DNA from: Eutreptiella sp. 'Long Island Sound 2002'
Taxonomy: Eukaryota > Euglenozoa > Euglenophyceae > Eutreptiales > Eutreptiaceae
DNA length: 64,000 nt
Reading direction: 5' to 3'
Assembly (NCBI GenBank): GCA_964036045.1
Contig: OZ038395.1
Span: 4,056,410-4,120,409, forward strand
How positions within the stretch are numbered: position 1 is the first letter of the stretch; the number at the start of each line of letters is the position of its first letter. Both the position numbers and the translations under genes were made by a program. Below, in pieces: positions 1,791-63,927 of this stretch. The notes beneath the pieces are model-generated. The model was not told the DNA's origin, searched no databases, and worked only from the letters and a program-made list of their open reading frames with translations.

Positions 1791-4622
1791 TCACAATGGT
1801 ACCTGTGGTCCCTGCACCATGGGTCTGCCAGACCCAGGGCGAGGGGTATTGTAGCTGGGTGGGGTCATGGACTGGCTGTAGCTGGGTGGGGACATGGACT
1901 GGCTGTAGCTCGGTGGCAACATGGACTGGCTGTAGCTGGGTGGGGACATGGACTGGCTGTAGCTGGGTGGGGACATGGACTGGCTGTAGCTGGGTGGGGA
2001 CATGGACTGGCTGTAGCTGGGTGGGGTCATGGACTGGCTGTAGCTGGGTGCGGACATGGACTGGCTGTAGCTGGGTGGGGACATGGACTGGCTGTAGCTG
2101 GGTGGGGACATGGACTGGCTGTAGCTGGGTGGGGACATGGACTGGCTGTAGCTGGGTGGGGATATGGACTGGCTGTAGCTGGGTGGGGATATGGACTGGC
2201 TGTAGCTGGGTGGGGACATGGACTGGCTGTAGCTGGGTGGGGTCATGGACTGGCTGTAGCTGGGTGGGGATATGGACTGGCTGTAGCTGGGTGGGGATAT
2301 GGACTGGCTGTAGCTGGGTGGGGACATGGACTGGCTGTAGCTGAGTGGGGTCATGGACTGGCTGTAGCTGGGTGGGGACATGGACTGGCTGTAGCTGGGT
2401 GGGATCATGGACTGGCTGTAGCTGGGTGGGGACATGGACTGGCTGTAGCTGGGTGGGGTCATGGACTGGCTGTAGCTGGGTGGGGACATGGACTGGCTGT
2501 AGCTGGGTGGGGACATGGACTGGCTGTAGCTGGGTGGGGTCATGGACTGGCTGTAGCTGGGTGGCAACATGGACTGGCTGTAGCTGGGTGGGGTCATGGA
2601 CTGGCTGTAGCTGGGTGGGGACATGGACTGGCTGTAGCTGGGTGGGGTCATGGACTGGCTGTAGCTGGGTGGGGACATGGACTGGCTGTAGCTGGGTGGG
2701 GACATGGACTGGCTGTAGCTGGGTGGGGACATGGACTGGCTGTAGCTGGGTGGGGACATGGACTGGCTGTAGCTGGGTGGGGTCATGGACTGGCTGTAGC
2801 TGGGTGGGGTCATGGACTGGCTGTAGCTGGGTGGGGACATGGACTGGCTGTAGCTGGGTGGGGACATGGACTGGCTGTAGCTGGGTGGGGACATGGACTG
2901 GCTGTAGCTGGGTGGGGACATGGACTGGCTGTAGCTGGGTGGGGACATGGACTGGCTGTAGCTGGGTGGGGACATGGACTGGCTGTAGCTGGGTGGGGTC
3001 ATGGACTGGCTGTAGCTGGGTGGGGACATGGACTGGCTGTAGCTGGGTGGGGACATGGACTGGCTGTAGCTGGGTGGGGTCATGGACTGGCTGTAGCTGG
3101 GTGGGGACATGGACTGGCTGTAGCTGGGTGGCAACATGGACTGGCTGTAGCTGGGTGGGGACATGGACGGGCTGTAGCTGGGTGGGGACATGGACTGGCT
3201 GTAGCTGGGTGGGGTCATGGACTGGCTGTAGCTGGGTGGGGACATGGACTGGCTGTAGCTGGGTGGGGACATGGACTGGCTGTAGCTGGGTGGGGACATG
3301 GACTGGCTGTAGCTGGGTGGGGACATGGACTGGCTGTAGCTGGGTGGGGACATGGACTGGCTGTAGCTGGGTGGCAACATGGACTGGCTGTAGCTGGGTG
3401 GGGTCATGGACTGGCTGTAGCTGGGTGGGGACATGGACTGGCTGTAGCTGGGTGGGGACATGGACTGGCTGTAGCTGGGTGGGGACATGGACTGGCTGTA
3501 GCTGGGTGGGGACATGGACTGGCTGTAGCTGGGTGGGGACATGGACTGGCTGTAGCTGGGTGGGGACATGGACTGGCTGTAGCTGGGTGGGGTCATGGAC
3601 TGGCTGTAGCTGGGTGCGGACATGGACTGGCTGTAGCTGGGTGGGGTCATGGACTGGCTGTAGCTGGGTGGGGACATGGACTGGCTGTAGCTGGGTGGGG
3701 ACATGGACTGGCTGTAGCTGGGTGGCAACATGGACTGGCTGTAGCTGGGTGGGGTCATGGACTGGCTGTAGCTGGGTGGGGACATGGACTGGCTGTAGCT
3801 GGGTGGGGACATGGACTGGCTGTAGCTGGGTGGGGATATGGACTGGCTGTAGCTGGGTGGGGACATGGACTGGCTGTAGCTGGGTGGGGACATGGACTGG
3901 CTGTAGCTGGGTGGGGACATGGACTGGCTGTAGCTGGGTGGGGACATGGACTGGCTGTAGCTGGGTGGGGACATGGACTGGCTGTAGCTGGGTGGGGATA
4001 TGGACTGGCTGTAGCTGGGTGGGGACATGGACGGGCTGTAGCTGGGTGGGGACATGGACTGGCTGTAGCTGGGTGGGGTCATGGACTGGCTGTAGCTGGG
4101 TGGGGACATGGACTGGCTGTAGCTGGGTGGGGACATGGACTGGCTGTAGCTGGGTGGCAACATGGACTGGCTGTAGCTGGGTGGGGTCATGGACTGGCTG
4201 TAGCTGGGTGGGGTCATGGACTGGCTGTAGCTGGGTGGGGTCATGGACTGGCTGTAGCTGGGTGGGGACATGGACTGGCTGTAGCTGGGTGGGGACATGG
4301 ACTGGCTGTAGCTGGGTGGCAACATGGACTGGCTGTAGCTGGGTGGGGACATGGACTGGCTGTAGCTGGGTGGGGACATGGACTGGCTGTAGCTGGGTGG
4401 GGACATGGACTGGCTGTAGCTGGGTGGGGTCATGGACTGGCTGTAGCTGGGTGCGGACATGGACTGGCTGTAGCTGGGTGGGGTCATGGACTGGCTGTAG
4501 CTGGGTGGGGACATGGACTGGCTGTAGCTGGGTGGGGTCATGGACTGGCTGTAGCTGGGTGGGGACATGGACTGGCTGTAGCTGGGTGGGGACATGGACT
4601 GGCTGTAGCTGGGTGGGGACAT
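1791..4622 (-). CDS. Open frame through the minisatellite (nonapeptide repeat), doubtful
   Basis: On the minus strand the array reads as about 103 copies of the nonapeptide [10 protein letters not shown], followed by a short non-repeat tail ending in a stop. The Ser/Pro/Tyr composition is superficially like low-complexity phospho-repeat domains such as the RNA polymerase II CTD, but the heptad pattern is absent. An in-frame TAG lies one codon upstream of the first Met, so it would need a splice acceptor there to be part of a larger protein. Two plus-strand frames are equally open (an AVAGWGHGL repeat and a WTGCSWVGT repeat). The most common variant (GAC/GTC) is silent only in the AVAGWGHGL frame. 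I cannot choose between the frames and non-coding is most likely. Confidence 0.15.
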
Positions 4623-4626
4623 GGGC
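1848..4626. repeat. 27-bp minisatellite, about 103 copies
   Basis: A 27-bp unit (TAGCTGGGTGGGGACATGGA plus CTGGCTG) is repeated head to tail without indels. Only a few variant positions recur: GAC/GTC/GAT before ATGG, GGCAAC replacing GGGGAC, GCGGAC, and GACGGG. The period is a multiple of three, so three of the six frames stay open throughout. Short flanking strings containing GGCTCCAAGGGCC occur on both sides (about 1670 and 4880). It could lie in an intron of the 5218-8573 gene or be coding. Confidence 0.95.
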
Positions 4627-32834: not shown

Positions 32835-35800
32835 GCACTTGTGGGCCAGTTCTGATTCTGCTCCCCGCTCTGAAGCGATTGGGACTCCCCAGGCGGTAGG
32901 GTTTATGTAGCCACCTTGCCCACTTGTGGGCCACTTCTAATTCTGCCCCCCGCTTTGAAGCGGTGGGGACTCCCCAGTAGGCAGGGGTTATGTAGCCACC
33001 TTGCCCACTTGTGGGCCACTTCTCATTCTGCCCCCCGCTCTGAAGCGATTGGTCCCCACCGCTTCAGAGCGGGGGGCAGAATCAGAAGTGGCCCACAAGT
33101 GGGCAAGGTGGCTACATATTATGTGTATTATGGGTTATGTAGCCACCTTGCCCATTTGTGGGCCACCTGTGATTCTGCCCCCCGCTCTGAAGCGCTGGGC
33201 ACCCCCCAGGCGGCAGGGGTTATGTAGCCACCTTGCTCACTTGTGGGCCACTTCTGATTCCGCCCCGCACTCCGAAGCGTTGGGGACCCCCTAGGCGGCA
33301 GGGGTTATGTAGCCACCTTGCCCACTTGTGGGCCTCCTGTGATTCTGCCCCCCGCTCTGAAGCGGTGGGGACCCCCCAGGCGGCAAGGTTTATGTAGCCA
33401 CCTTGCCCACTTGTGGGCCACTTCTGATTCCGCCCCGCACTCTGAAGCGGTGGGGACCCCCCAGGCGGCAGGGGTTATCCAGCCACCTTGCCCACTTGTC
33501 GGCCACTTCCGATTCTGCCCCCCGCTCTGAAGCAGTGGGGACCCCATAGGCGGCAAGGGTTACGTAGCCACCTTGCCAACTTTTGGGCCACCTCTGAGTC
33601 TGCCCCCCGCTCTAAAGCGGTGGGGACCCCCCAGGTGGCAGGGGTTATGTAGCCACCTTGCCCACTTGTGGGCCACTTCTGATTCTGCCCCCCGCTCTGA
33701 AGTCGTGAAGTCGTGGTGACCCCCTAGGCGGCAGGGGTTATGTAGCCACCTTGCACACTTTTGGGCCACCTGTGACTCTGTCCCCCGCTCCGAAGCGGTG
33801 GGGACCCCCCAGGTGGCAGAGTTCATGTAGCCACCTTGCCCATTTGTGGGCCACTTCTGATTCTGCCCCCCGCTCTAAAGCGGTGGGGACCCCCTAGGCG
33901 GCACGGGTTATGTAGCCACCTTCCCCACATGTGAGCCACCTGCGACTCTGTCCCCCGCTCTGAAGCGGTGGGGACCCCCTAGGCGGCATGGGTTATGTAG
34001 CCACCTTGCACACTTGTGGGCCACTTCTGATTCTGCCCTCCGCTCTGAAGCGGTGGGTACCCCTCAGGCGGCAGGGGTTATGTTGCCACCTTGCACACTT
34101 GTGGGCCACTTCTGATTATGCCCCCCGCTCTGAAGTCGTGAAGTCGTGGTGACCCCCTAGGCGGCAGGGGTTATGTAGCCACCTTGCCCCCTTGTGGGCC
34201 ACTTCTGATTCTGCCCCCCGCTCTAAAGCGGTGGGGACCCCCCAGTCGGCAGGGGTTATGTAGCCACCTTGCCCACTTGTGGGCCACCTGTGACTCTGCC
34301 CCCCACTCTGAAGCGGTGGGGACCACCCAGGTGGCAGAGTTCATGTAGCCACCTTGCCCATTTGTGGGCCACTTCTGATTCTGCCCCCCGCTCTAAAGCG
34401 GTGGGGACCCCCTAGGCGGCACGGGTTATGTAGCCACCTTCCCCACATGTGAGCCACTTGTGACTCTGTCCCCCGCTCTGAAGCGGTGGGGACCCCCTAG
34501 GCGGCATGGGTTATGTAGCCACCTTGCACACTTGTGGGCCACTTCTGATTCTGCCCTCCGCTCTGAAGCGGTGGGGACCCCTCAGGCGGCAGGGGTTATG
34601 TTGCCACCTTGCCCACTTGAGGGCCACTTGTGATTATGCCCCCCGCTCTGAAGTCGTGGGGACCCCCCAATCGGCAGGGGTTATGTAGCCACCTTGCGCA
34701 CTTGTGGGCCACTTCTGATTCTGCCCCCCGCTCAGATCCGGTGGGGACCCCCCAGGCGGTAGGGGTTATGTAGCCACCATGCCCACTTGTGGGCCACTTC
34801 TGACTCTGCCCCCCACTCTGAAGCGGTGGGGACCACCCAGGCGGCAGGGGTTATGTAGCCACCTTGCCCACTTGTGGGCCACTTCTAATTGTGCCCCCCG
34901 CTCTGAAGCGGTGGGGACCCCGAGGCGGCAGGGGTTATGTAGCCGCCTTCCCCACTTGTGGGCCACCTACGACTCTGCCCCCCGCTTTGAAGCGGTGGGT
35001 ACCCCCCAGGCGGCAGGGGTTATGTAGCCACCTTGCCCACAAATGGGCCACTTCTGATTCTGCTCCCCGCTCTGAAGCGGTGGGGACCCCCCAGGCGGCA
35101 GGGGTTATGTAGCCACCTTGCCCACTTGTGGGCCACTTCTGATTATGCCCCCCGCTCTGAAGCGGTGGGGACCCCGAGGCGGCAGGGGTTATGTAGCCGC
35201 CTTCCCCACTTGTGGGCCACCTACGACTCTGCCCCCCGCTTTGAAGCGGTGGGTACCCCCCAGGCGGCAGGGGTTATGTAGCCACCTTGCCCACTTGTGG
35301 GCCACCTGCCATTCTGCCCCCCGCTGTGAAGCGGTGGGGACCCCCCAGGCGGCAGGAGTTATGTTGCCACCTTGCCCACTTGTGGGCCACTTCTGATTCC
35401 GCCGCGCACTCTGAAGCGGTGGGGACCCCCGAGACGGCACGGTTTATGCAGCCACCTTGCCCACTTGTGGGCCACTTCTGATTCCGCCCCCCGCTCTGAA
35501 GCAGTGGGGACCCCCCATGCAGCAGGGGTAGCCACCTTGCCCACTTGTGGGCCACCTGTGACTCTGCCCCCCGCTCTGAAGCGGTGGGAACCCCCCAGGC
35601 GGTGGGGGTTATGCAGCCACCTTGCCCACTTGTGGGCCACTTCTGATTCTGCTCCCCGCTCTGAAGCGGTGTGGACCCCCCAGGCGGCAGGGTTTATGTA
35701 GCCTTCTTGCCCACTTGTCGGCCACTTCCGATTCTGCCCCCCGCTCTGAAGCAGTGGGGACCCCATAGGCGGCAGGGGTTATGTACCCAAGTGGCCCACT

Positions 35801-36227
35801 TGTGGGCCACTTTTGATTCTGCTCCCCGCTCTGAAGCGGTGCGGACCCCCCAGGCGGCGGGGAGGTTATGTAGCCACACTGCCCATTTGTGGGCCACTTT
35901 TGATTCGGCCCCCCTCTCTTTAGCGGTGCGGACCCCTCAGGCGGCAGCGGTTATGTAGCCGCCTTACCCACTTGTCCGCCACTTCTGATTTTGCCCCGCA
36001 CTCTGAAGCGGTGGGGACCCCCCAGGCGGCTGGGTTTATGTAGCCACCTTGCGCACTTGTGCGCCACTTCTGATTCCGCCCCGCACTCTGAAGCGGTGGG
36101 GACCCCCTAGGCGACAGGGGTTATGTAGCCACCTTGCCCACTTGTGGGCCACTTCTGATTCTGCCCCGCACTCTTAAGCGGTGGGGACCCCCGAGGCGGA
36201 AGGGGTTATGTAGCCACCTTGCCCACT
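32835..36227. repeat. 85-bp satellite, block 1
   Basis: About 40 head-to-tail units, consensus starting TTATGTAGCCACCTTGCCCA. Each unit has two dyads: GCCCAC-TT-GTGGGC and CCGCT-CTGA-AGCGG. One unit at about 33050-33117 is inverted. The same satellite resumes at 42589, 48775, 51479 and 53222, so the intervening pieces are insertions into one array. Confidence 0.95.
36223..36227. repeat. Left target-site duplication CCACT
   Basis: CCACT directly precedes the left TIR and is repeated at 42589-42593 after the right TIR; the satellite consensus has only one copy. Confidence 0.75.
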
Positions 36228-36256
36228 CTTAGGCGGCTCAAGTTGGATGGTCAAAA
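36228..36256 (+). repeat. Left terminal inverted repeat
   Basis: CTTAGGCGGCTCAAGTTG, then one mismatch, ATGGT, one mismatch, AAAA, relative to the inverted right end at 42560-42588. Confidence 0.85.
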
Positions 36257-36421
36257 ACGAAGGAAAAGGTAGGAAAATGACAGGTTTCCAAAGACATCAA
36301 AGAATAGTTGTTTTGATGGATATTTTAAAAGCGTCGCAAACAAGTATGGCAGATTAACTATTTCTATAAGAATGATGTGTCCCATGGGCGAGACAGGGAA
36401 AAGTATTGTTTGGTGACCATT

Positions 36422-36445
36422 CTTTGCGCGAGGCCTCGCGCAAAG
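36422..36445. repeat. 24-bp perfect palindrome P1
   Basis: CTTTGCGCGAGG followed by its exact reverse complement, outside any ORF. Confidence 0.9.
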
Positions 36446-36653
36446 ACGTTCATTTGTGTCACATTAATGTGCTACAGCACGACGCATTAGGCAGGTTGTC
36501 GAAAAATGGAACCCTGTCGTATTTATACACGTAACTTAGTACCATTTTCATGATTGCGTGATAGAGATAGATCTATTAACGAATAAACTTCAACAAGTGT
36601 GTACCCAAGAATCTTGAAAAGTATACATGTTCCGGAACAAACTGCAGTTTCAA

Positions 36654-36669
36654 GCGCGAGGCCTCGCGC
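36654..36669. repeat. Palindrome P2 (16 bp)
   Basis: GCGCGAGGCCTCGCGC in the leader of the transposon. Confidence 0.9.
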
Positions 36670-36707
36670 ATGGAACGGCGCATGAGAAACATTAAAGTTT
36701 CGGTGAT

Positions 36708-36731
36708 CATTGCGCGAGGCCTCGCGCAATG
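36708..36731. repeat. 24-bp perfect palindrome P3
   Basis: CATTGCGCGAGG followed by its reverse complement. The arms beyond the core differ from P1 but still pair, so pairing rather than sequence is kept. Confidence 0.9.
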
Positions 36732-37115
36732 GAGGTCACAAGCGCTCGTAGAAACCAAAATTGGACAGATCCGCCAACTACACAGCATGCACATTCCCTT
36801 GATGCGGCGCTGCTGCATGGGCGCCCATACAGGTCCCGCCAGCATCTCCGGTTTTCATACCGTGGTCACCGCTGGCTTCACTGCCCAACAGCGATGGTAG
36901 CGCGCCGCAACTGGCTACCGCAATCAGGATTAACTAGTCAAATGTGGGATCACCAGACAGTTACAATTAACCGAAAATGCTGCATGCGACAAGCGAATCA
37001 CAGAATAATTGGTCGCGCGAAAACTGTGTGACAGGTTGATGTTTGAAATCAAGAAAGTTTTTCAAACAGCGATTTTTACATAGATACAGGTACGCATTCA
37101 TTCTTCACAGCAACA

Positions 37116-38561
37116 ATGCCCCTGCGAAAAGAGGTGGACCTTGAGAAGACAGTGGCCGCAGCATCCGGAGTTTTCCGCGATGTCTGCTCAGAGGAACCGC
37201 CGTACCACACGGCAGAAGAACTGTGGGAAGGACTAAAACAGGGGGACGAGGGCGCGCGATTGTTGTTTGTGTTTTTTCTGCGTCTGCGCAAAAATGAACG
37301 GACGCGTTGCAGCGTTGAAAAGGCGATTGCGGCAGAAGGCAAGAGATGGGTTGGTGTTTTGTTAGAGGAGGCCTGGCGCCTTTATTTGCTGATGCGCCAC
37401 CGCGCAGTTCCATACCAGGGAAAACCAAAGTCAGTTGTTGCGGTAGCGGGGAGTAGGGCGCAGCGTCGCATTTTAGCAAGGTCGGGTCTGGCGCGATACA
37501 GCGCACCTTCGCTGAAGGAGAGGGCCGCAGTCAGGTTACACACTACATGGAACAAAATACACCAACAGTGGGTTGTGTTGTGGATGGACAACTGGTACAA
37601 CAAACAGTTTACCACAAATCCTGACAAGAACGACAAAAGCCTGAACGCAACAGCGTTGGCTGTGTTGCTACTGAAGGATGCACCGCGCTACTGGCATGGT
37701 CATCCTAGCCTGGAAGAGCTTGAACGGCGTGTTCCTGTTGTTGCACGCATGCTGGGAAACACCGAGGGAACGTTTGCACGTATCCTGCACGATCTAGGAT
37801 TTGCAAGCACGCGACCTGTTGTGCGAAACATTAGGGCACCGCTTGACATTATTCGCCCTGTGCCTGCCAAGAGACCACATTGGCGACCCCTTTGTCTAAG
37901 CAAAGAAAAGGTAAGCGGCAACGTATCGCTTCTTAACCTACTGCAATTTACTAGGGACTTGGCGCAGCACACCCGACCAGTTGTCCCTGTTCTATGTGAT
38001 GAGAACATCCATTACCGAATTTGTAAGATGATGTACGGTGAAAAAACAACGGGTTGGAACGTCCGGCTTTTTTTGCGTTCACACCCTATATTATATGGTT
38101 TCTGGCACGCGTACAAATTTTGCGTTACACAAACATTTCGCTCATTTTGGCCGATTGTGACTTTTTTCCGTAAGGGTTTGTTGCGCAGCGGTGACACAGT
38201 CCCCTGTTTTCCCAAGCTGATCACAATGGAGATAACTGTTGGTGCACTGCTGTTGGGTATGGGCCCCCACATACGGCGCCTTAACCGAAAATGTCATTCC
38301 CTTGAGCTGGCACGTCCTGCAAATCGGCAAAGTCGCCTCCGTTACGCTGTGTGTAAGGCCATGCAGGTTCTGTTAACACAATACTGTCCCATGTTACTAT
38401 ACCTAGGACACCTCGTTAGGCAGTGCAATTGGGCTGGGGAGACGGCCAACACGGGTGTTTTTGCTTCGGAGGGATTGCAGATTGTTATGTGTCTGTTAGA
38501 CCGTTTGAACATGGGGGACACACTTTTAAAATACGAACGCACTGTTGCAACTGCGCTATAG
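37116..38561 (+). CDS. Transposon gene 1, candidate transposase (481 aa)
   Basis: An intact 481-residue ORF. Two blocks look catalytic: residues 152-161 (WVVLWMDNWY, Asp158), followed by a NPDKNDKSLNATALAV segment, and residues 290-301 (VPVLCDENIHYR, Asp295/Glu296), followed by FLRSHPILYGFWHAYK (325-334). A hydrophobic strand ending in a conserved-looking Asp, twice, is what an RNase H-like DDE/D nuclease would show, and this is the largest uninterrupted frame of the element, so transposase is the best guess. There is no tyrosine-recombinase R..HxxR..Y signature and no zinc finger. It is followed 24 bp later by gene 2 on the same strand. Function is inferred from context only. Confidence 0.65.
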   Translation: MPLRKEVDLEKTVAAASGVFRDVCSEEPPYHTAEELWEGLKQGDEGARLLFVFFLRLRKNERTRCSVEKAIAAEGKRWVGVLLEEAWRLYLLMRHRAVPYQGKPKSVVAVAGSRAQRRILARSGLARYSAPSLKERAAVRLHTTWNKIHQQWVVLWMDNWYNKQFTTNPDKNDKSLNATALAVLLLKDAPRYWHGHPSLEELERRVPVVARMLGNTEGTFARILHDLGFASTRPVVRNIRAPLDIIRPVPAKRPHWRPLCLSKEKVSGNVSLLNLLQFTRDLAQHTRPVVPVLCDENIHYRICKMMYGEKTTGWNVRLFLRSHPILYGFWHAYKFCVTQTFRSFWPIVTFFRKGLLRSGDTVPCFPKLITMEITVGALLLGMGPHIRRLNRKCHSLELARPANRQSRLRYAVCKAMQVLLTQYCPMLLYLGHLVRQCNWAGETANTGVFASEGLQIVMCLLDRLNMGDTLLKYERTVATAL

Positions 38562-38585
38562 TGCCACACTGCATGGCACACAGCC

Positions 38586-39101
38586 ATGCCTGGACAGGCT
38601 TTTGCCGAGGAATTTTGTGAAAGTCTGCTTTCCAGCCTTGTGACAAAGAAGGGCCAAAACACAGGTGCAGCAACCATTGAAGATGTTGACGATCGGTATC
38701 AGCTCATCATTATCCGCAAAGAAGGTCACAGGGTGAACGTCTGTAAAGTCCCCAATTCCTTTGTCAATTCCGTGCGTCAGCGGTTAACTGCCTACTTGAA
38801 CGCAGAGCGTGTATATGTGCCTTGGGTTAGGTGGTGTGCTGAGCCTACTTGTACAATTCAGGCGCATTGGCCGCGCAGGGGTGTACCTAACTTTCCACCG
38901 TCTCTTCTAATTCCAAAGGGTTCTAACCACTACAAACAAGTCCTTGTGTCTGTGTTGTTGGTGCTAACGCAGCAGGGGCCACTTAAGGCTGGTTTCAAGC
39001 GAAAACTGTCGGAGCTGATCCCCCAACGCAGTGTGTTGGAGGAACAGAGAGAGGCCGACACGCTGCGAAACTTTCGAAGAAGATTGGAGAACATGCAGTA
39101 A
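38586..39101 (+). CDS. Transposon gene 2, unknown (171 aa)
   Basis: A small intact frame that starts 24 bp after the gene 1 stop. It is basic towards the C-terminus (FKRKLSELIPQ, then RNFRRRLENMQ with heptad-like spacing), suggesting a short coiled coil or nucleic-acid contact. No domain is recognised. The stop TAA at 39099 abuts palindrome P4, and GT at 39098 could be a donor instead, so the true C-terminus is uncertain. The small gap to gene 1 raises the possibility that both are parts of one spliced or bicistronic transcript. Confidence 0.55.
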   Translation: MPGQAFAEEFCESLLSSLVTKKGQNTGAATIEDVDDRYQLIIIRKEGHRVNVCKVPNSFVNSVRQRLTAYLNAERVYVPWVRWCAEPTCTIQAHWPRRGVPNFPPSLLIPKGSNHYKQVLVSVLLVLTQQGPLKAGFKRKLSELIPQRSVLEEQREADTLRNFRRRLENMQ

Positions 39102-39119
39102 TGCGCGAGGCCTCGCGCA
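39102..39119. repeat. Palindrome P4 after gene 2 stop
   Basis: An 18-bp perfect palindrome starting with the base after the TAA stop of gene 2. It could act as an RNA hairpin at the transcript end or as part of an intron. Confidence 0.9.
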
Positions 39120-39154
39120 AACAGCATGAAACAACAGGTTAGTACACCCCCTCT

Positions 39155-39176
39155 CTTGCGCGAGGCCTCGCGCAAG
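39155..39176. repeat. Palindrome P5 (22 bp)
   Basis: CTTGCGCGAGG plus its reverse complement, lying between a GTTAGT donor-like string (39138) and a TTGACAG acceptor-like string (39184). Confidence 0.9.
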
Positions 39177-39336
39177 GTTGACAGTCAAAAACAGTGCCGT
39201 GCCCCTTCAGTTTTGCATTCTCAACCATACTGTACTCGTATCCGCTAAAAGCGCCCCACATATGCATTATCGACGACGATTTTAACCATTTTCAAAGTTG
39301 TGTTTCCTTCAATACAGGCTTTCTTCTTATCGCAGA

Positions 39337-42318
39337 ATGGCAAGCCCCGCCAAAAAAACAGCCGAGGAACGAGAAGATACCGACTCTGACCCTGGGACCT
39401 CGGGATCGGAGGCTGGAACACCAAAGAAGGGGCGCAAAAAGAAGGAAACACCAGATCCTGGCTTAACCTTGGGTACTGACATCGAGGACCACCTGAAGCC
39501 GGATGGGAGGCAGGTGGATGTTGAGCTGGACAGCGTGAGAATCGACCAGGAGAAGACAAAGGGGCAGATTAGACGGAAAGATACGAAGTTACTGCAGAAG
39601 CGTATTGAGTCACTCGAAGCAGCACCGCCAACAGGCCCATTACACATCGTTCTCTGGGAAGATAATAGTATGTTGCCAACCGACTTTTCGCTCTTCTCGT
39701 TGCGCGAGCCCTGGCGCATAGACGTGTCTCATATTTGCAGATGGCGATTATTGGTGTGTATCTGGACAGCACAGCGTGGAAGCGATTGCGAAGATTCGGG
39801 AGAAGCGACGTACAGCGTGTCTGGATCTGCAGCAGTGGCATACTGTATGCATCGCCGATATTCTAAAGCCTACGACACCGTGGGCCTTCCGTGCAAAGCT
39901 GGCGGGACAAGCACAAGGAAGCGCACAAGACGTTGAGCCAATTCCGCTGTATGAGGCAGCAGATAACCTCATTTGATGTGTTGAAGATCAGCGGCGGCGA
40001 GGCCTGGCTGACACGTAAAGCAATCTCAAGATCGCCATTGTGGATGCTGTGCAGATGAGTGCCCTGGTTCCAACCGCTGAACTGAAGCAACCTGGTCAAT
40101 TCGTATGTTCATTAATCGTTGTTTCGGTGCTCTTCGTTGCGCGAGGCCTCGCGCATAACGTTGTCACTTTCAGGACAAAACGTATAAATTGTGGAAAGAT
40201 TTTATGACGTTTGCCTACTATGCTGGTCCGGAAGCTGTGAAAGGTCTGCAGAAGTTCCACGACAAAGGGGAGAAAGTCACGAAGAACGCGCTGAAGAAAC
40301 TGGACGGGATCCTGTTGCCGGAGTTCTACAACAAAGTGGCAGAAGTGATGCAGGAAGAAAAAACAACCCTTAAATCCTTGCAGAATTCGTTTGACGACAT
40401 CATCCTTGAGCAGTGGGTCTCAATGCATCTGGACCACCGGCACAACGGCCAGTACGTTCGACCTGAGAAAGGTGTGTACCATCGACGAGACGTGGGTTCC
40501 GTTTCTGCATCGGTGCGCCGCACTTTCTCCATTTCTGTTCTTTAGCCAAAGACATGCGGACCCGCAAAGAGGTTGCTGCACTTGGAAGGCCTGCCCTGAA
40601 GGTGACTCTTGGTACATGGGGCTATTGGCGGGAACCTGAAGGCAAAAGTCGCGGTCCATGGCCGGCATGGAAATCCATGATTCGCGCACCACTGTGGCAG
40701 GTGGCAGAGAAAGGCAAACCCGCCTCCCTGAAAATCCTCAACGTCCAAAAACTCCTGGGCCAAGAGCCTACCAGGAGCCGTGTGGTCCCCCCACCTGCTG
40801 GCGTTACTGGTGACTTCAAGACAGTGGAACAGCAGGATCCATCACTGTCAAGTCAAACTATCACAGTTAAGGCGACCCGAATTGCAGCGTTGACCCACGA
40901 TCCCCCGAGGCGGTTTATTGAGATTGACAAGAACCTGATTGTCATCAACGGCGACATATTTGAACATCTTGCTCCTGAGATGATGTGCCCAGCCTGGCTG
41001 TATGAAGAGATGGCGCGTGCCGATACCCTTATCTGCGGCTCCAAAACTGTTGTTGACAACATGTTCAACGTGCTGGAAACGGAAACAGAGAGGCGTCTCA
41101 ACGATGATTTCAACGCGCCGCGCATTGGCAACATGTTGCTTATTCCCATCTTCAGTTGGCCAGTCAAACCGAAGCCTGCAGGGGATCCTACAACGTTTGA
41201 CGTTCGCTGGTTGCTGATTTCGTCACCGGATAGCTGGTCGAGAAAGGTATAATTCCCTCATTACGTCCGCTCTTGGCGCGAGGCCTCGCGCAATAACTTC
41301 TCCCTCATTGCAGATTCCGAATTATCTGACGTTTGGACCAACTCAAGTAGAGGAGATGGATCCTGTTGAATTTGGCGGTCACCTTCCGATAACGACGGTT
41401 ATGTGGTATTTCGACACTCACCTCTTTTACCTGAAGCAGGATAAGAGCTTCAAGCCTGCGTTTGTGTTCATTGATCATCAGCCGGATCTGGTGTGCAAGA
41501 TCGCGGCCATCGAGCCGGATTCTCGCATGTACCTTCTTGGTGTTACCTCCGACAATCTCTCCGATTGGGTCAACAGAGTGCAGACTCAGTTGAACCACGT
41601 ATTGACACAAGAGTCGAAACTGCACGCGTCTGGTGATTGGGACCAGCAAGCCAACTGGGCAAACCGTGGTATTCCCCTTTGGGTTCGCGATGACAAGGTG
41701 GGTTCTGATGCGTTGTCGCTGAAGGAGGAAGAGACTGTTGAGAAAGGTCAAGCTGCAGAAGCACTTGCCCCTGCAAAGCGGAAGTCTACTGGTGGGGAAC
41801 CAGCCCCCAAGAAGAAGAAGACTGCCTCCAAGCCTCAGGCAGCGAAGTCGGTTACCGGTGCAGAATCCGACGAGAGCGATGGGGATGAAGAGGAGGAGAG
41901 CGAGGAAGAAGAGGAGGAGGAAGCGCAGGTCTCCCAGGGCAAGGCAGCGAAGAAAGTGGCAGCGAAGCCGAGGTCCGAGGAAACCGGGGCCCGAGCTCCA
42001 TTCAAGCAGCCAGCCCGTCAGTCCCAACCAAGAAGCGCGCCCGCAAAGCCACCGCCTAAGGGTAACACGTCCGTTGCTAAGGCATTGGGTTCTAAGATGC
42101 AAAATGTATATTATGCGCGAGGGCTCGCGCTATGCATTCCTCTTCGACGACCTTTATGCTGTCACCTTGTGCGGCACATTTTTCTCTGTGATGCATTTTA
42201 TTGCGCTGTTGTGGTGGTGTTTGCGCGAGGCCTCGCGCAAAGAAGGGGAGCCAAAAAATGCTTCTTGTCGTGCAGCGTGGAACATGGTTTTCGAAAAATG
42301 GTTTTCCAAAGAGATTGA
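39337..42318 (+). CDS. Transposon gene 3, spliced, ParB-like motif and charged tail
   Basis: Six exons join without a frame break: 39337-39667, 39741-39948, 40021-40102, 40174-40471, 40546-41246 and 41314 to at most 42318. Phases are 1, 2, 0, 1, 0 across five GT..AG introns of 67-74 bp. Splicing creates DYWCVSGQHSVEAI, close to the GGxHR/QHS core of ParB-like nuclease or partition folds, and then LDLQQWH and TPWAFRAKLAGQAQG. Later exons give a globular region with LWKDFMTFAYYAGPEAV and MWYFDTHLFYLKQDKSFKP. The last exon ends in a KKKK segment and a run of Glu/Asp, then Lys/Pro/Ser, typical of disordered nuclear proteins. The end may instead be removed by splicing from GT at 42106. The role may be DNA binding for transposition. 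Confidence 0.65.
39668..39740 (+). other. Intron 1 of transposon gene 3 (73 bp, palindrome)
   Basis: GTATGT...TTTGCAG. It contains a degenerate palindrome TGCGCGAGCCCTGGCGCA at 39701-39718, 33 bp from the donor. Removing it joins phase 1 codons and creates the GQHS motif. Confidence 0.75.
39949..40020 (+). other. Intron 2 of transposon gene 3 (72 bp, weak palindrome)
   Basis: GTATGAGG...CGTAAAG. It carries GGCGAGGCCTGGCTGAC, a weak version of the palindrome that keeps the GAGGCCT core, at about 39994-40010. Splicing bypasses the in-frame TGA at 39974 and keeps the frame (phase 2). Confidence 0.6.
40103..40173 (+). other. Intron 3 of transposon gene 3 (71 bp, perfect palindrome)
   Basis: GTATGT...TTTCAG with the 18-bp perfect palindrome at 40138-40155, 35 bp from the donor and 18 bp from the acceptor end. 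Confidence 0.8.
40472..40545 (+). other. Intron 4 of transposon gene 3 (74 bp, different dyad)
   Basis: GTGTGT...TTCTTTAG. It lacks the common palindrome but has GTGCG-C-CGCAC in the matching central position (about 40513-40523), so a stem may be kept with another sequence. Confidence 0.7.
41247..41313 (+). other. Intron 5 of transposon gene 3 (67 bp, perfect palindrome)
   Basis: GTATAATT...CATTGCAG with GCGCGAGGCCTCGCGC at 41277-41292, 30 bp from the donor. Confidence 0.8.
42112..42240. repeat. Two further palindromes near the end of gene 3
   Basis: A slightly degenerate GCGCGAGGGCTCGCGC starts at about 42115, and a perfect 24-bp palindrome lies near 42222-42243. They may lie in a last intron starting with GT at 42106 or in the 3' untranslated region. 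Confidence 0.75.
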
Positions 42319-45296
42319 AAGCTCATGGGTGTTTTTATTGCAAAGCACAAGTGGTATACGAAACAAAAAGTCGTGATTTTCCAAAAAAGAACTTCATTTT
42401 TTTGGAAATAAATCATTTTCCCGGGCAGTCGGTTTTGTTCAAAATAAAGGAAAATGGACCAGTTAATTGCTTTTCACGGGATTTTTGGTTCTTGTGTTTT
42501 ACGTCCCCCCCAAAAGGACTATTTTTTCGCAGTGCCGTAGAGAGGCAGTTTCGGGCACATTTTCACCATGCAACTTGAGCCGCCTAAGCCACTTGTGGGC
42601 CACTTCTCATTCTGCCCCCAGCTCTGAAGCGGTGGGGACCCCCCAGGTGGCAAGGGTAGCCACCTTGCCCACTTGTGGGCCACCTGTGACTCTGCCCCCC
42701 CGCTCTGAAGCGGTGGGGACCCCCCAGGCGGCGGGGGTTATGCAGCCACCTTGCCCACTTGTGGGCCACTTCTGATTCTGCTCCCCGCTCTGTAGCGCTT
42801 GGGAACCCCCCAGGCGGCAGGGTTTATGTAGCCTTCTTGCCCACTTGTGGGCCACTTCCGATTCTGCCCCCCGCTCTGAAGCAGTGGGGACCCCATAGGC
42901 GGCAGGGGTTATGTACCCAAGTGGCCCACTTGTGGGCCACTTTTGATTCTGCCCCCCGCTCTGAAGCGGTGGGGACCCCCCAGGCGGCAGGGGTTATGTA
43001 GCCACCTTGCCCATTTGTGGGCCACTTTTGATTCGGCCCCCCGCTCTTTAGCGGTGCGGACCCCTCAGGCGGTAGCAGTTATGTAGCCACCTTACCCACT
43101 TGTCCGCCACTTCTGATTCCGCCCCGCACTCTGAAGCGGTGGGGACCCCCGAGGCGGCAGGGTTTATGTAGCCACCTTGCGCACTTGTGGGCCACTTCTG
43201 ATTCCGCCCCTGTGCGGCACATTTTTCTCTGTGATGCATTTTATTGCGCTGTTGTGGTGGTGTTTGCGCGAGGCCTCGCGCAAAGAAGGGGAGCCAAAAA
43301 ATGCTTCTTGTCGTGCAGCGTGGAACATGGTTTTCGAAAAATGGTTTTCCAAAGAGATTGAAAGCTCATGGGTGTTTTTATTGCAAAGCACAAGTGGTAT
43401 ACGAAACAAAAAGTCGTGATTTTCCAAAAAAGAACTTCATTTTTTTGGAAATAAATCATTTTCCCGGGCAGTCGGTTTTGTTCAAAATAAAGGAAAATGG
43501 ACCAGTTAATTGCTTTTCACGGGATTTTTGGTTCTTGTGTTTTACGTCCCCCCCAAAAGGACTATTTTTTCGCAGTGCCGTAGAGAGGCAGTTTCGGGCA
43601 CATTTTCACCATGCAACTTGAGCCGCCTAAGCCACTTGTGGGCCACTTCTCATTCTGCCCCCAGCTCTGAAGCGGTGGGGACCCCCCAGGTGGCAAGGGT
43701 AGCCACCTTGCCCACTTGTGGGCCACCTGTGACTCTGCCCCCCCGCTCTGAAGCGGTGGGGACCCCCCAGGCGGCGGGGGTTATGCAGCCACCTTGCCCA
43801 CTTGTGGGCCACTTCTGATTCTGCTCCCCGCTCTGTAGCGCTTGGGAACCCCCCAGGCGGCAGGGTTTATGTAGCCTTCTTGCCCACTTGTGGGCCACTT
43901 CCGATTCTGCCCCCCGCTCTGAAGCAGTGGGGACCCCATAGGCGGCAGGGGTTATGTACCCAAGTGGCCCACTTGTGGGCCACTTTTGATTCTGCCCCCC
44001 GCTCTGAAGCGGTGGGGACCCCCCAGGCGGCAGGGGTTATGTAGCCACCTTGCCCATTTGTGGGCCACTTTTGATTCGGCCCCCCGCTCTTTAGCGGTGC
44101 GGACCCCTCAGGCGGTAGCAGTTATGTAGCCACCTTACCCACTTGTCCGCCACTTCTGATTCCGCCCCGCACTCTGAAGCGGTGGGGACCCCCGAGGCGG
44201 CAGGGTTTATGTAGCCACCTTGCGCACTTGTGGGCCACTTCTGATTCCGCCCCTGTGCGGCACATTTTTCTCTGTGATGCATTTTATTGCGCTGTTGTGG
44301 TGGTGTTTGCGCGAGGCCTCGCGCAAAGAAGGGGAGCCAAAAAATGCTTCTTGTCGTGCAGCGTGGAACATGGTTTTCGAAAAATGGTTTTCCAAAGAGA
44401 TTGAAAGCTCATGGGTGTTTTTATTGCAAAGCACAAGTGGTATACGAAACAAAAAGTCGTGATTTTCCAAAAAAGAACTTCATTTTTTTGGAAATAAATC
44501 ATTTTCCCGGGCAGTCGGTTTTGTTCAAAATAAAGGAAAATGGACCAGTTAATTGCTTTTCACGGGATTTTTGGTTCTTGTGTTTTACGTCCCCCCCAAA
44601 AGGACTATTTTTTCGCAGTGCCGTAGAGAGGCAGTTTCGGGCACATTTTCACCATGCAACTTGAGCCGCCTAAGCCACTTGTGGGCCACTTCTCATTCTG
44701 CCCCCAGCTCTGAAGCGGTGGGGACCCCCCAGGTGGCAAGGGTAGCCACCTTGCCCACTTGTGGGCCACCTGTGACTCTGCCCCCCCGCTCTGAAGCGGT
44801 GGGGACCCCCCAGGCGGCGGGGGTTATGCAGCCACCTTGCCCACTTGTGGGCCACTTCTGATTCTGCTCCCCGCTCTGTAGCGCTTGGGAACCCCCCAGG
44901 CGGCAGGGTTTATGTAGCCTTCTTGCCCACTTGTGGGCCACTTCCGATTCTGCCCCCCGCTCTGAAGCAGTGGGGACCCCATAGGCGGCAGGGGTTATGT
45001 ACCCAAGTGGCCCACTTGTGGGCCACTTTTGATTCTGCCCCCCGCTCTGAAGCGGTGGGGACCCCCCAGGCGGCAGGGGTTATGTAGCCACCTTGCCCAT
45101 TTGTGGGCCACTTTTGATTCGGCCCCCCGCTCTTTAGCGGTGCGGACCCCTCAGGCGGTAGCAGTTATGTAGCCACCTTACCCACTTGTCCGCCACTTCT
45201 GATTCCGCCCCGCACTCTGAAGCGGTGGGGACCCCCGAGGCGGCAGGGTTTATGTAGCCACCTTGCGCACTTGTGGGCCACTTCTGATTCCGCCCC
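42168..45296. repeat. Three 1,043-bp tandem copies of transposon end plus satellite
   Basis: 42168-43210, 43211-44253 and 44254-45296 appear identical. Each unit has the last 421 bp of the transposon, including one perfect palindrome and the right TIR, followed by about 620 bp of 85-bp satellite. The junction CGCCCC/TGTGCGGCAC joins satellite to transposon interior, so units two and three lack a left end. Short ORFs repeated in the units are not genes. Confidence 0.9.
42560..42588 (-). repeat. Right terminal inverted repeat
   Basis: It ends CAACTTGAGCCGCCTAAG, the exact reverse complement of the first 18 bases of the element. The same right end recurs at 43631 and 44674 because of the triplication. 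Confidence 0.85.
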
Positions 45297-45950
45297 GCAC
45301 TCTGAAGCGGTGGGGACCCCCTAGGCGACAGGGGTTATGTAGCCACCTTGCCCACTTGTGGGCCACTTTTGATTCTGCCCCCCGCTCTGAAGTGGTGGGG
45401 ACCCCCCACGCGGCAGGGGTTATGTAGCCACCTTGCCCACTTGTGGGCCACTCCTCATTCTGCCCCCAGCTCTGAAGCGGTGGGGACCCCCCAGGTGGCA
45501 AGGGTTATGTAGCCACCTTGCCCACTTCTGGGCCACTTCTGATTCTGCCCCCCGCTCTGAAGTGGTGGGGACCCCCCATGCGGCAGGGGTTATGTAGCCA
45601 CCTTGCCCACTTGTGGGCCACTTCTCATTCTGCCCCCAGCTCTCAAGCGGTGGGAACCCCCTAGGCGGCAAGGGTTATGTAGCCACCTTGCCCACTTATG
45701 GGCCACTTCTCATTCTGCCCCCCGCTTTGAAGCGGTGGGGACCCCCTAGGCGGCATGGTTTATGTAGCCACCTTGCCCACTTGTGGGCCACCTCTGATTC
45801 TGCCCCCCGCTCCGAAGCGGTGGGGACCCCCCAAGCGGTAGGGGTTATGTAGCCACCATGCCCACTTGTGGGCCACCTGTGACTCTACCCCCGCTCTGAA
45901 GCGGTGGGGACCCCCAGGCGGCAGGGGTTATGTAGCCACCTTGCCCATTT
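42589..45950. repeat. 85-bp satellite, block 2
   Basis: It continues the block 1 array after the transposon, including the satellite parts of the triplication. It ends at the retroposed element. Confidence 0.9.
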
Positions 45951-54517: not shown

Positions 54518-55777
54518 ATGATACTGCAATTGCCTTTGGAAGTACTGAACAACGTCACAGATTTTCTTGACTCAGAGTCGCTGTGTCACGTTTGTCAGAG
54601 GTTGAGGGCAGTACTTGGGAGTGGTCGTTATCTCAAGGTGAAGTGCCATGTAAACAAGATTGCACAGCGTGTGATCGGGTATGTTGGAAACATACGGTCA
54701 TTGCGGTTCAGATGTTGTTCATTGAGAAGCAGTGAGGTACAGGCCCTTGCAGCACTGAAAGATGCCCCCTCATTGCATACACTAACCCTCGATCTCCGGG
54801 GAAATTCAGCTGGAGACAGCGGGGTACAGGCCCTTGCATCGCTGAAAGAGGCCCCCTCATTGCATAAGCTGACCCTTGATCTTGGGAACAACGCAATGGG
54901 AGACAGTGGGGCACAAGCCCTTGCAGCGCTTAAGGAGACACCCTCGTTGCATACACTGACCCTTGATCTTTGGCGCAATTTAGTGGCACATAGTGGGGCA
55001 CAGGCCCTTGCAGCGTTGAAGGATGCCCCCTCATTGCATACACTGACCCTCCACCTTTGGAATAATTCAGTGGGAGACAATGGGGCACAGGCCCTTGCTG
55101 CGCTGAAGGAGGCGCCTTCATTGAATGTGCTGACCCTTAACCTTCGCAACAATTCAGTGGGCGCCAGTGGGGCAAAGGCGCTTGCAACCCTGAAAGAGGC
55201 CCCCTCACTGCATACGCTGACCCTCAACCTTGGGAAAAGTTCAGTGGGAGCCAGTGGGGCAAAGGCCCTTGCAACCCTGAAAGAGGCCCCCTCATTGCAT
55301 ACACTAATCCTCGATCTTGGGGACAATTCAGTGGGTGACAGTGGGGCGCAGGCCCTGGCAACGCTGAAGGAGGCCGTCTCATTGCATACACTGACCCTTG
55401 ATCTTTGGAACAATTCAGTGGGAGACAGTGGGGCACAGGCCCTTGCAAGCCTGAAAAACGCCCCCTTGTTGCATACACTGACCCTCAATTTTTGGAACAA
55501 TGCAGTTGGAGACAGTGGGGCACAGGCCCTTGCATCGCTGAAAGAGGGCCCCTCATTGCATTCGCTGACCCTGACCTTTTGGAACAATTCAATTGGAGAC
55601 AGTGGGGCAAAGGCCCTTGCAGCGTTGCAGGAGGCCCCCTCGTTGCATACGCTGACCCTTGATCTTAGGCACAATCCAGTGGGAGTCAGTGGGGCACAGG
55701 CCCTTGCAACGCTGCAGGAGGCATCCACATTGCATACACTGAACCTCGATCTTGGTGATAGTGATGATGAAGGCTGA
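54518..55777 (+). CDS. F-box/LRR protein, copy 1 (419 aa, intact)
   Basis: It starts MILQLPLEVLNNVTDFLDSE, an F-box-like helix set (LPxEVLxxVxxFL..ESLCHVCQRLR, residues 5-33), then a link to about residue 70, then 12 ribonuclease-inhibitor-type LRRs of exactly 29 residues (87 bp): L..APSLHTLTLDL..NSVGDSGAQALA. The C-terminus is acidic (DLGDSDDEG). It is likely a substrate receptor of an SCF-type ubiquitin ligase, with the curved LRR surface binding the target. Near-identical repeats at DNA level suggest ongoing repeat gain and loss. The neighbouring copy at 61790 shares the N-terminus and flanks. Confidence 0.8.
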   Translation: MILQLPLEVLNNVTDFLDSESLCHVCQRLRAVLGSGRYLKVKCHVNKIAQRVIGYVGNIRSLRFRCCSLRSSEVQALAALKDAPSLHTLTLDLRGNSAGDSGVQALASLKEAPSLHKLTLDLGNNAMGDSGAQALAALKETPSLHTLTLDLWRNLVAHSGAQALAALKDAPSLHTLTLHLWNNSVGDNGAQALAALKEAPSLNVLTLNLRNNSVGASGAKALATLKEAPSLHTLTLNLGKSSVGASGAKALATLKEAPSLHTLILDLGDNSVGDSGAQALATLKEAVSLHTLTLDLWNNSVGDSGAQALASLKNAPLLHTLTLNFWNNAVGDSGAQALASLKEGPSLHSLTLTFWNNSIGDSGAKALAALQEAPSLHTLTLDLRHNPVGVSGAQALATLQEASTLHTLNLDLGDSDDEG

Positions 55778-61789: not shown

Positions 61790-63927
61790 ATGATACTGCA
61801 ATTGCCTTTGGAAGTACTGAACAACGTCACAGATTTTCTTGACTCAGAGTCGCTGTGTCACGTTTGTCAGAGGTTGAGGGCAGTACTTGGGAGTGGTCGT
61901 TATCTCAAGGTGAAGTGCCATGTAAACAAGATTGCACAGCGTGTGATCGGGTATGTTGGAAACATACGGTCATTGCGGTTCAGATGTTGTTCATTGAGAA
62001 GCAGTGAGGTACAGGCCCTTGCAGCACTGAAAGATGCCCCCTCATTGCATACACTAACCCTCGATCTCCGGGGAAATTCAGCTGGAGACAGCGGGGTACA
62101 GGCCCTTGCATCGCTGAAAGAGGCCCCCTCATTGCATAAGCTGACCCTTGATCTTGGGAACAGCGCAATGGGAGACAGTGGGGCACAAGCCCTTGCAGCG
62201 CTTAAGGAGACACCCTCGTTGCATACGTTGACCCTCGATCTTTGCAACAATGCAGTGGGAGCCAGTGGGGCACAGGCCCTTGCAGCGCTAAGGGAGGCCC
62301 CCTCATTGCATAAGCTGACCCTCAATTTTGGTAACAATTCAGTGGGTGACAGTGGGGCAGAGGCCCTTGCAACGCTGAACCAGGCCCCCTCGTTGCATAC
62401 ACTGACGCTCAACCTTGGAGACAATTCAGTGGGAGCCAGCGGGGCACAGGCCCTTGCAGCGTTGAAGGATGCCTCATCATTGCATACACTCTATCTCGAT
62501 CTTGGTTGCAATTCAGTTGGAGACAATGGGGCACAGGCCCTTGCTGCGCTGAAGGAGGCGCCTTCATTGAATGTGCTGACCCTTAACCTTCGCAACAATT
62601 CAGTGGGCGCCAGTGGGGCAAAGGCGCTTGCAACCCTGAAAGAGGCCCCCTCACTGCATACGCTGACCCTCAACCTTGGGAAAAGTTCAGTGGGAGCCAG
62701 TGGGGCAAAGGCCCTTGCAACCCTGAAAGAGGCCCCCTCATTGCATACACTAATCCTCGATCTTGGGGACAATTCAGTGGGTGACAGTGGGGCGCAGGCC
62801 CTGGCAACGCTGAAGGAGGCCGTCTCATTGCATACACTGACCCTTGATCTTTGGAACAATTCAGTGGGAGACAGTGGGGCACAGGCCCTTGCAAGCCTGA
62901 AAGACGCCCCCTTGTTGCATACACTGACCCTCAATTTTTGGAACAATGCAGTTGGAGACAGTGGGGCACAGGCCCTGGCATCGCTGAAAGAGGGCCCCTC
63001 ATTGCATTCGCTGACCCTGACCTTTTGGAACAATTCAATTGGAGACAGTGGGGCAAAGGCCCTTGCAACCCTGAAAGAGGCCCCCTCATTGCATACACTA
63101 ATCCTCAATCTTGGGGACAATGGGGGTGACAATCAGTGGGTGACAGTGGGGCGCAGGCCCTGGCAACGCTGAAGGAGGCCGTCTCATTGCATACACTGAC
63201 CCTCAACCTTTGGAATAATTCAGTGGGAGACAATGGGGCACAGGCCCTTGCTGCGCTGAAGGAGGCGCCTTCATTGAATGTGCTGACCCTTAACCTTCGC
63301 AATTCAGTGGGTGACAGTGGGGCGCAGGCCCTGGCATCGCTGAAGGAGGCCGTCTCATTGCATACGCTGACCCTTGATCTTTGGAAGAATTCAGTGGGAG
63401 ACAGTGGGGCACGGGCCCTTGCAGGCCTGAAAGACGCCCCCTTGTTGCATACACTAATCCTCGATCTTGGGTTCAATTCAGTGGGTGACAGTGGGGCGCA
63501 GGCCCTGGCAACGCTGAAGGAGGCCGTCTCATTGCATACACTGACCCTCAACCTTTGGCACAATTCAGTGGGAGACAGTGGGGCACAGGCCCTTGCAAGC
63601 CTGAAAGACGCCCCCTTGTTGCATACACTGACCCTCAATTTTTGGAACAATGCAGTTGGAGACAGTGGGGCACAGGCCCTTGCATCGCTGAAAGAGGGCC
63701 CCTCATTGCATTCGCTTACCCTGATTTTTTGGAACAATTCAATTGGAGACAGTGGGGCAAAGGCCCTTGCAGCGTTGCAGGAGGCCCCCTGGTTGCATAC
63801 GCTGACCCTTGATCTGAGGCGCAATCCAGTGGGAGTCAGTGGGGCACAGGCCCTTGCAACGCTGCAGGAGGCATCCACATTGCATACACTGAACCTCGAT
63901 CTTGATGATAGTGATGATGAAGGCTGA
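61790..63927 (+). pseudogene. F-box/LRR copy 2, frame-shifted by a small insertion
   Basis: It is identical or nearly so to copy 1 over the F-box and first LRRs, then has more LRRs (about 13 before the break and 9 after). At about 63121-63140 the string GGGGACAATTCAGTGGGTGA of the standard repeat appears as GGGGACAAT, extra GGGGGTGACAA, then CAGTGGGTGA, a net gain of 11 bp. The first frame therefore ends at 63172, while the LRR frame continues from 63136 to the normal C-terminus (SDDEG) at 63927. Without the insertion the protein would be larger than copy 1. It may be a pseudogene, a truncated 460-residue protein or an assembly error. Confidence 0.7.

Follow-up and report, generated by a model that had tools for sequence, protein, structure and literature searches.

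Short DNA motifs scattered through the noncoding parts of a transposon have been described for the VANDAL elements of Arabidopsis. VANC21 is an anti-silencing protein encoded by the element itself, and its motif is found in VANDAL21 within introns, between genes and in the noncoding terminal regions (PMC5735166; PMC10398659). We analysed a stretch of 64,000 nucleotides from Eutreptiella sp. 'Long Island Sound 2002' (contig OZ038395.1, positions 4,056,410 to 4,120,409; hereafter the window), in which a DNA transposon with two genes, open reading frames ORF1 and ORF2, carries ten copies of a palindrome, GCGCGAGGCCTCGCGC. As for VANC21 in VANDAL21 (Hiun) and for VANC6, a short element-specific motif is thus found in introns and in intergenic and terminal noncoding DNA (PMC5735166), and as in the VANC systems, related families have differing versions of it (PMC10398659). 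Like VANC motifs, which are noncoding, introns included, and absent from coding sequence, all ten sites are noncoding, three of them intronic. The VANC21 motif YAGTATTAY, however, often forms fast-changing tandem repeats, whereas the sites described here are 16-18-bp dyads, singly dispersed, with the same core in distant families. A second system is ParB/parS, whose parS site is described as being 16 bp long (PMC8494293). It shares with the present locus a short perfect palindrome in several copies (eight perfect ones in the window element) and a weak ParB-like signal in ORF2; it differs in that the element is a eukaryotic transposon with sites all through it, and the ParB likeness of ORF2 falls short of established homology. 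Neither the exact palindrome nor its 14-bp centre was found in the papers searched, and nothing similar appeared in the literature on palindromic transposon sites, in that on Euglena transposons with introns or in that on ParB with a transposon and sulfiredoxin. From the location of the sites, their conservation, their confinement to these elements as far as examined, their retention in gene-less elements and their family-specific arms, we infer that the palindrome is probably a dyad-symmetric DNA recognition site for a protein encoded by the element, in a group of two-gene DNA transposons.

A search of the window with up to three mismatches gave 12 matches between 36426 and 44324. Ten of these fall inside the element, and the other two belong to tandemly duplicated copies of its 3' end. 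Three sites precede ORF1 (sites 1 to 3, at 36426-36441, 36654-36669 and 36712-36727), two lie in the spacer between ORF1 and ORF2 (sites 4 and 5, at 39103-39118 and 39158-39173), three in introns 1, 2 and 4 of ORF2 (sites 6, 7 and 9, at 39702-39717, 40139-40154 and 41276-41291) and two in the 3' region (sites 10 and 11, at 42115-42130 and 42223-42238). Eight of them are perfect; site 10 has a GG centre and one mismatch, and site 6 has two mismatches in the window, a one-mismatch form with a CC centre in L010 and in L020-L023, and another two-mismatch form in L016. None of the ten overlaps coding sequence, the noncoding part amounting to 1,889 of the 6,361 bp of the element (29.7%; p ~5e-6 if the sites are independent). 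Adjacent sites are 55-2391 bp apart, and no tandem array scoring at least 300 was found within 36228-42588. Each of the copies L020-L023 also has ten sites, arranged in the same order. The element sequences compared were taken from the window, from regions of contig 1 and from four further copies; among 120 sites from 17 elements or fragments, 82 were perfect, with a centre of GC in 97, GG in 16 and CC in 7.

The abundance of the palindrome is far beyond chance, with 11,014 perfect copies in the 2.28-Gb genome and none of the reversed control. Only eight of these copies lack both the T at -1 and the A at +1. Hence, the sites seem to share TGCGCGAGGCCTCGCGCA as their core, and there can be few copies whose flanks are unrelated. 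Outside this core, family A, to which the window element belongs, mostly adds W..W and a second family, B, adds (A)G..C(T). The flanks WT..AW and GT..AC were counted 6,172 and 3,608 times genome-wide, and the mixed form GT..AA 65 times (28 and 37 in the two orientations). The terminal inverted repeat (TIR) words of family A were found 1390 times forward and 1350 times in reverse, and those of family B 850 and 839 times. The original prediction had proposed looking for the palindrome in introns of the host. On contig 1, the first 15 regions with the palindrome contain 50 perfect copies, and each of these falls in a stretch that matches elements of this group for 150 bp or more. Arm pairing was assessed on 33 sites in five groups by comparing the match between the two arms of a site with that obtained after shuffling between sites of the same group. 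Pairing was no better within sites (63/132 against 58.0 shuffled at positions 3-6, p 0.14; p 0.25 at positions 1-2; p >0.8 at the outer positions). Site-specific compensation, for which the original prediction had proposed a check in other copies, is thus not seen, and the arms are a family consensus, as for the half-sites of a dimer.

The sites were better preserved than their surroundings between the two families. Family B is represented by L019, L008, L011 and L005, elements of 6.8-6.9 kb with the TIR CTTAGCCCACGCAAACTG and ten palindromes each, except L005, which has nine. Between A and B, ORF1 is 46% identical over its full length and segments of ORF2 26-33%, and the site places agree, except in intron 1 of B, which has none, and in intron 3 of A, where the core is lost. 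Sites outscored the other noncoding positions in identity in eight of the nine comparisons that have sites, the sites having been picked by palindrome match, which slightly favours them. This is illustrated by family A against L015 (~79% identical), with 47/48 site positions identical against a fraction of 0.76 elsewhere, 16/16 against 0.61 and 30/32 against 0.63. Between A and B, the values were 38/48 against 0.43 in the 5' region, 32/32 against 0.48 in the spacer, 31/32 against 0.50 in the 3' region, 16/16 against 0.51 in intron 2 and 16/16 against 0.59 in intron 4; intron 3 offers no site to compare. This last intron lacks the core in family A and contains GTGCGCCGCAC in the window copy and AGTGCGCCGCACT in five of seven A copies. 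The original prediction had seen there a different dyad in the place of the palindrome; the lack of the core stands, and AGTGCGCCGCACT looks like a family-B site minus its centre. The alignment of AGTGCGCCGCACT to the B site requires a 9-base gap, and its local score was reached by 19 of 2000 shuffles, made from an intron sequence with slight typing errors. If this alignment is real, the B-type arms would be ancestral.

Two groups of gene-less elements, N6 (~1.7 kb, one copy of 1.3 kb, with a family-A TIR) and N7 (~1.2 kb, with a family-B TIR), contain neither ORF2 nor its introns and keep the sites, which shows that the site does not act only through the splicing of ORF2. A tblastn search with ORF1 and ORF2 gave no match at E<=0.01 in any of the 20 copies. 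With the same threshold, a comparison of two N6 and two N7 copies against a single element each of A and of B gave matches at palindromes or ends, except for one of 27 bp that starts ~60 bp in from an end of an N7 copy. Sites are still recognisable, with at most four mismatches, at 44/44 places in 11 N6 copies, 31 of them perfect, and at 27/27 places in nine N7 copies. The consensus arms follow the TIR family, N7 having GT..AC as family B and N6 WT..AW as family A. Besides, CpG dinucleotides were more often intact inside than outside the sites, both in N6 (165/176 against 259/340, p 1.3e-7) and in N7 (91/99 against 202/247, p 0.011), and so were the non-CpG bases (348/352 against 16290/17146, p 0.0001, and 229/234 against 9643/10097, p 0.048). 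The window itself is depleted in CpG (observed/expected ratio 0.62, with TpG at 1.33), yet the CpG-rich sites are largely intact. In one N6 copy (L006:5226-5298), a palindrome lies within a longer inverted repeat, 73 bp matching their own reverse complement at 88%.

The two genes of the element were reconstructed with the help of other copies. ORF1 (37116-39101, forward strand) is a probable transposase, a role suggested by its place in the element. The original prediction had divided it into two genes; it is a single gene, split in the window copy by a TAG at 38559-38561, and encodes 661 residues in L020-L023 and 665 in the family-B copy L019. Over the part that had been taken for the first gene, A and B are 47-49% identical. 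Neither half matches a Pfam family at E<=1, the family-B protein gives only a sub-threshold match (E 0.15), and nothing significant came from the ORF1 profile in the PDB, where E was 0.47 for ribonuclease H and 0.98 for a PTS component. The predicted structure of the window part of ORF1 alone has a mean pLDDT (predicted local distance difference test score) of 37 and is unusable. ORF2 (39337-42107, forward strand) has four introns of GT..AG type, at 39668-39740 (73 bp), 40103-40173 (71 bp), 40472-40545 (74 bp) and 41247-41313 (67 bp), whose junctions are inferred from the reading frame. Their removal leaves ORF2 open over 833 residues in L020 and 832 in L023, where the acceptor of the last intron is TG and not AG, and the frame stops early in L021 (440 residues) and L022 (669 residues). 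In the window copy, a deletion near 42107 takes away the end of ORF2 including its stop codon. Against the PDB, the first 568 residues of the family-B ORF2 gave no match; a profile of the ORF2 N-terminus matched only ribosomal protein L35 (E 0.011), which was judged to be chance. Among viral contigs, neither ORF1 nor the N-terminus of ORF2 had relatives.

The introns were the starting point of this work, since the original prediction had described five in-frame introns of 67-74 bp sharing a palindrome near their centre. Four of them, with the lengths given, were retained. The remaining one, the second in that numbering and said to carry a weak GAGGCCT-centred version, belongs to exon 2. The window copy has stop codons there at 39974 and 40016, where 6/6 other family-A copies have sense codons, and family B encodes homologous residues. 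The palindromes reported for the introns numbered 1, 2 and 4 here, which were 1, 3 and 5 in the original prediction, were recovered, starting 34, 36 and 29 bp from the donors, perfect in the last two and with two mismatches in the first. The palindrome is real in three introns, but it is no feature of introns as such; seven of the ten sites of the element lie elsewhere. Counting A and B together, there are six sites per 595 bp of intron and 14 per 3506 bp of other noncoding DNA, a 2.5-fold difference (Fisher p 0.058), and introns are favoured as site locations at most mildly. The idea of a protein-binding site kept in introns is supported in a wider form, as a candidate site across the noncoding islands of the element.

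Under the proposed recognition by an element protein, a homodimer, most likely of ORF2 and possibly of ORF1, would bind the dyads along the whole element. The ~10 sites of a full element lie in its noncoding islands, among them the short introns of ORF2; exons presumably do not tolerate such sites. The bound protein would keep the chromatin of the element open or unmethylated. By analogy with VANC for VANDAL, this last function is the likeliest purpose of the sites, a suggestion that we hold tentatively and with somewhat less than even confidence. Several observations weigh against recognition by an element protein. Neither ORF2 nor ORF1 matches a known DNA-binding family above the Pfam threshold, and it is in the charged tail of ORF2 that its sub-threshold matches lie, for example CDC45 (E 0.014) and Myc_N (E 0.025). 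The core is lacking in intron 1 of family B and in intron 3 of family A, and in intron 1, where B has no site, identity between A and B was lower in the site (5/10) than elsewhere (0.70). Only 5/27 N7 sites are perfect, against 31/44 in N6, and of the three consensus sites of N7, two have one core mismatch. The arm types could stem from descent and not from co-evolving recognition, and the tandem-repeat layout of VANC targets is absent, the sites here being dispersed and stable. To these is added the slight favour given to the sites by the way they were picked.

Among the alternatives, the one that fares best, and that we nonetheless consider rather unlikely, is that the ORF1 transposase binds the internal sites for synapsis, copy counting or self-repression, the sites being needed for transposition. 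The retention of sites by gene-less elements, with the arm type of their own TIR family, would suit it, and five of the ten sites of the window element are ~200-500 bp from an end. Transposition sites, however, usually cluster at element ends, whereas here they are also found in the middle of the element, in introns and in the spacer between the genes, and the core is absent from the TIR itself.

A special case of recognition by an element protein would be a ParB/parS-like system: ORF2 would be a distant protein of the ParB fold, loading onto the palindromes and spreading from there over the element. We regard it as improbable. Residues ~55-130 of ORF2 resemble what we take to be the N-terminal layout of ParB, but the GERR-type motif is not preserved. 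With hhalign, P was 0.007 (probability 5%) for a profile containing one wrong frame and 0.03 after the removal of this frame, none of 100 column shuffles scoring as high (best 20.1 against 20.4), whereas the global mode gave P 0.25. A PHROG ParB-like family was matched at E 0.32, the fourth of five weak matches, by the family-A segment only. Against this, Pfam contained no ParB match to ORF2, NCBIfam gave none and the PDB profile search no ParB, while ParB_N matches in the genome fell at other loci, mostly on small contigs, in a search that reads single exons and in which intron 1 splits this domain. Small contigs (C1696, C1228, C953 and others) carry bacterial-looking ParB genes and are possibly assembly contaminants or symbionts. 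In its fullest form, ORF2 would be a ParB-fold clamp that loads at the ~10 palindromes and coats the element against silencing, its specificity and its sites having changed together when the families split; this we would call a long shot.

Quite improbable as well is that the elements exploit the site of a host protein, such as an insulator, a CpG-binding or a nucleosome-excluding factor. The CpG-richness of the site in a CpG-depleted window would fit such a factor, but the eight copies without both element-type flank bases leave no sizeable set with other flanks, and there are two arm types, one per family.

Very little speaks for selfish mini-palindromes or introner-like units inserted in noncoding DNA, an idea close to the spreading introner of the original prediction. 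Several kinds of noncoding island are occupied and hairpins could form; the sites nevertheless take the same places in A and B, between which, introns 1 and 3 aside, the other noncoding sequence has an identity of 43-59%, and none of the 50 copies examined indicated a spread beyond these elements. Moreover, the four ORF2 introns have the same positions and phases in both families, whether or not the palindrome is present, it being absent from intron 1 of B and reduced in intron 3 of A. In the introners of Amoebophrya, inverted repeats connect the 5' end of an intron to its 3' end, and direct repeats lie over the exon borders (PMC7789003). The introns described here likewise contain inverted repeats, but with a central dyad, not at the ends of an inserted unit, at positions that A and B share, and the majority of the sites are not intronic.

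Finally, an RNA hairpin helping the splicing of short introns by bringing the splice sites together can hardly be maintained. Introns 2 and 4 do fold to a stem at the palindrome, and sites are denser in introns; but of the 20 sites of A and B, 14 are not intronic, gene-less elements retain the sites, the arms are without site-specific compensation, and the off-centre changes (five C>T against nine G>A, small numbers) give no sign of G-U tolerance. As a caution, a motif common to the introns of one gene may have nothing to do with splicing.

The window element (36228-42588, forward strand, 6,361 bp) is a decayed family-A transposon, with stops in ORF1 and ORF2 and a 3' deletion. It is delimited by 29-bp TIRs, CTTAGGCGG..., at 36228-36256 (forward) and 42560-42588 (reverse), its termini beginning CTTAGGCGGCTCAAGTTG, and is flanked by the 5-bp target-site duplication (TSD) CCACT. 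Exact 5-bp TSDs were present in six of the eight elements checked (the window element, L019, L008, L005 after a border shift, L006 and L014), with one base differing in L011 and a shift by one in L007, and in seven of nine N7 copies. This length sets the element apart from VANDAL, and neither ORF1 nor ORF2 matched any known protein family above the Pfam threshold, VANC and Mutator-like proteins included, no direct comparison with VANC sequences having been made. Among other eukaryotic DNA transposons, some of which have accessory genes as here, the TSDs are of 8 bp in Zisupton and 7 bp in Kyakuja, and CMCT elements mostly have CA..TG ends and 2-5-bp TSDs (PMC12730594). The 5-bp TSDs thus differ from the 7 or 8 bp of the KDZ group, the CTTAG..CTAAG termini of the present transposons from the ends of CMCT type, and there is no Pfam transposase match. 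The element sits inside an array of an 85-bp satellite, its landing site, which occupies 33132-36227 and 42589-45947, with more arrays of this unit up to ~53689. Its last part is tandemly triplicated together with the satellite (42165-45293, period 1,043 bp), with palindromes at 42223, 43266 and 44309. Elsewhere, both halves of the element L026:1-4958 correspond to the 3' part of family A, in opposite orientations, and the element has two right ends. The window also contains a 27-bp minisatellite at 1850-4624 (~103 copies, 96% matches, strong GC skew) and, at 54518-55777 and 61790-63903, two related genes with leucine-rich repeats, which match the F-box weakly and are built of an 87-bp DNA repeat.

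If the palindrome is recognised by a protein of the element, this would be an apparently independent case, comparable to VANDAL, of a transposon using a single binding site to mark its noncoding parts, among them the introns, in a lineage that shares no recognised protein family with VANDAL. With 11,014 copies, two arm types and gene-less followers, the co-evolution of a transposon protein and its site would be directly testable in these elements.

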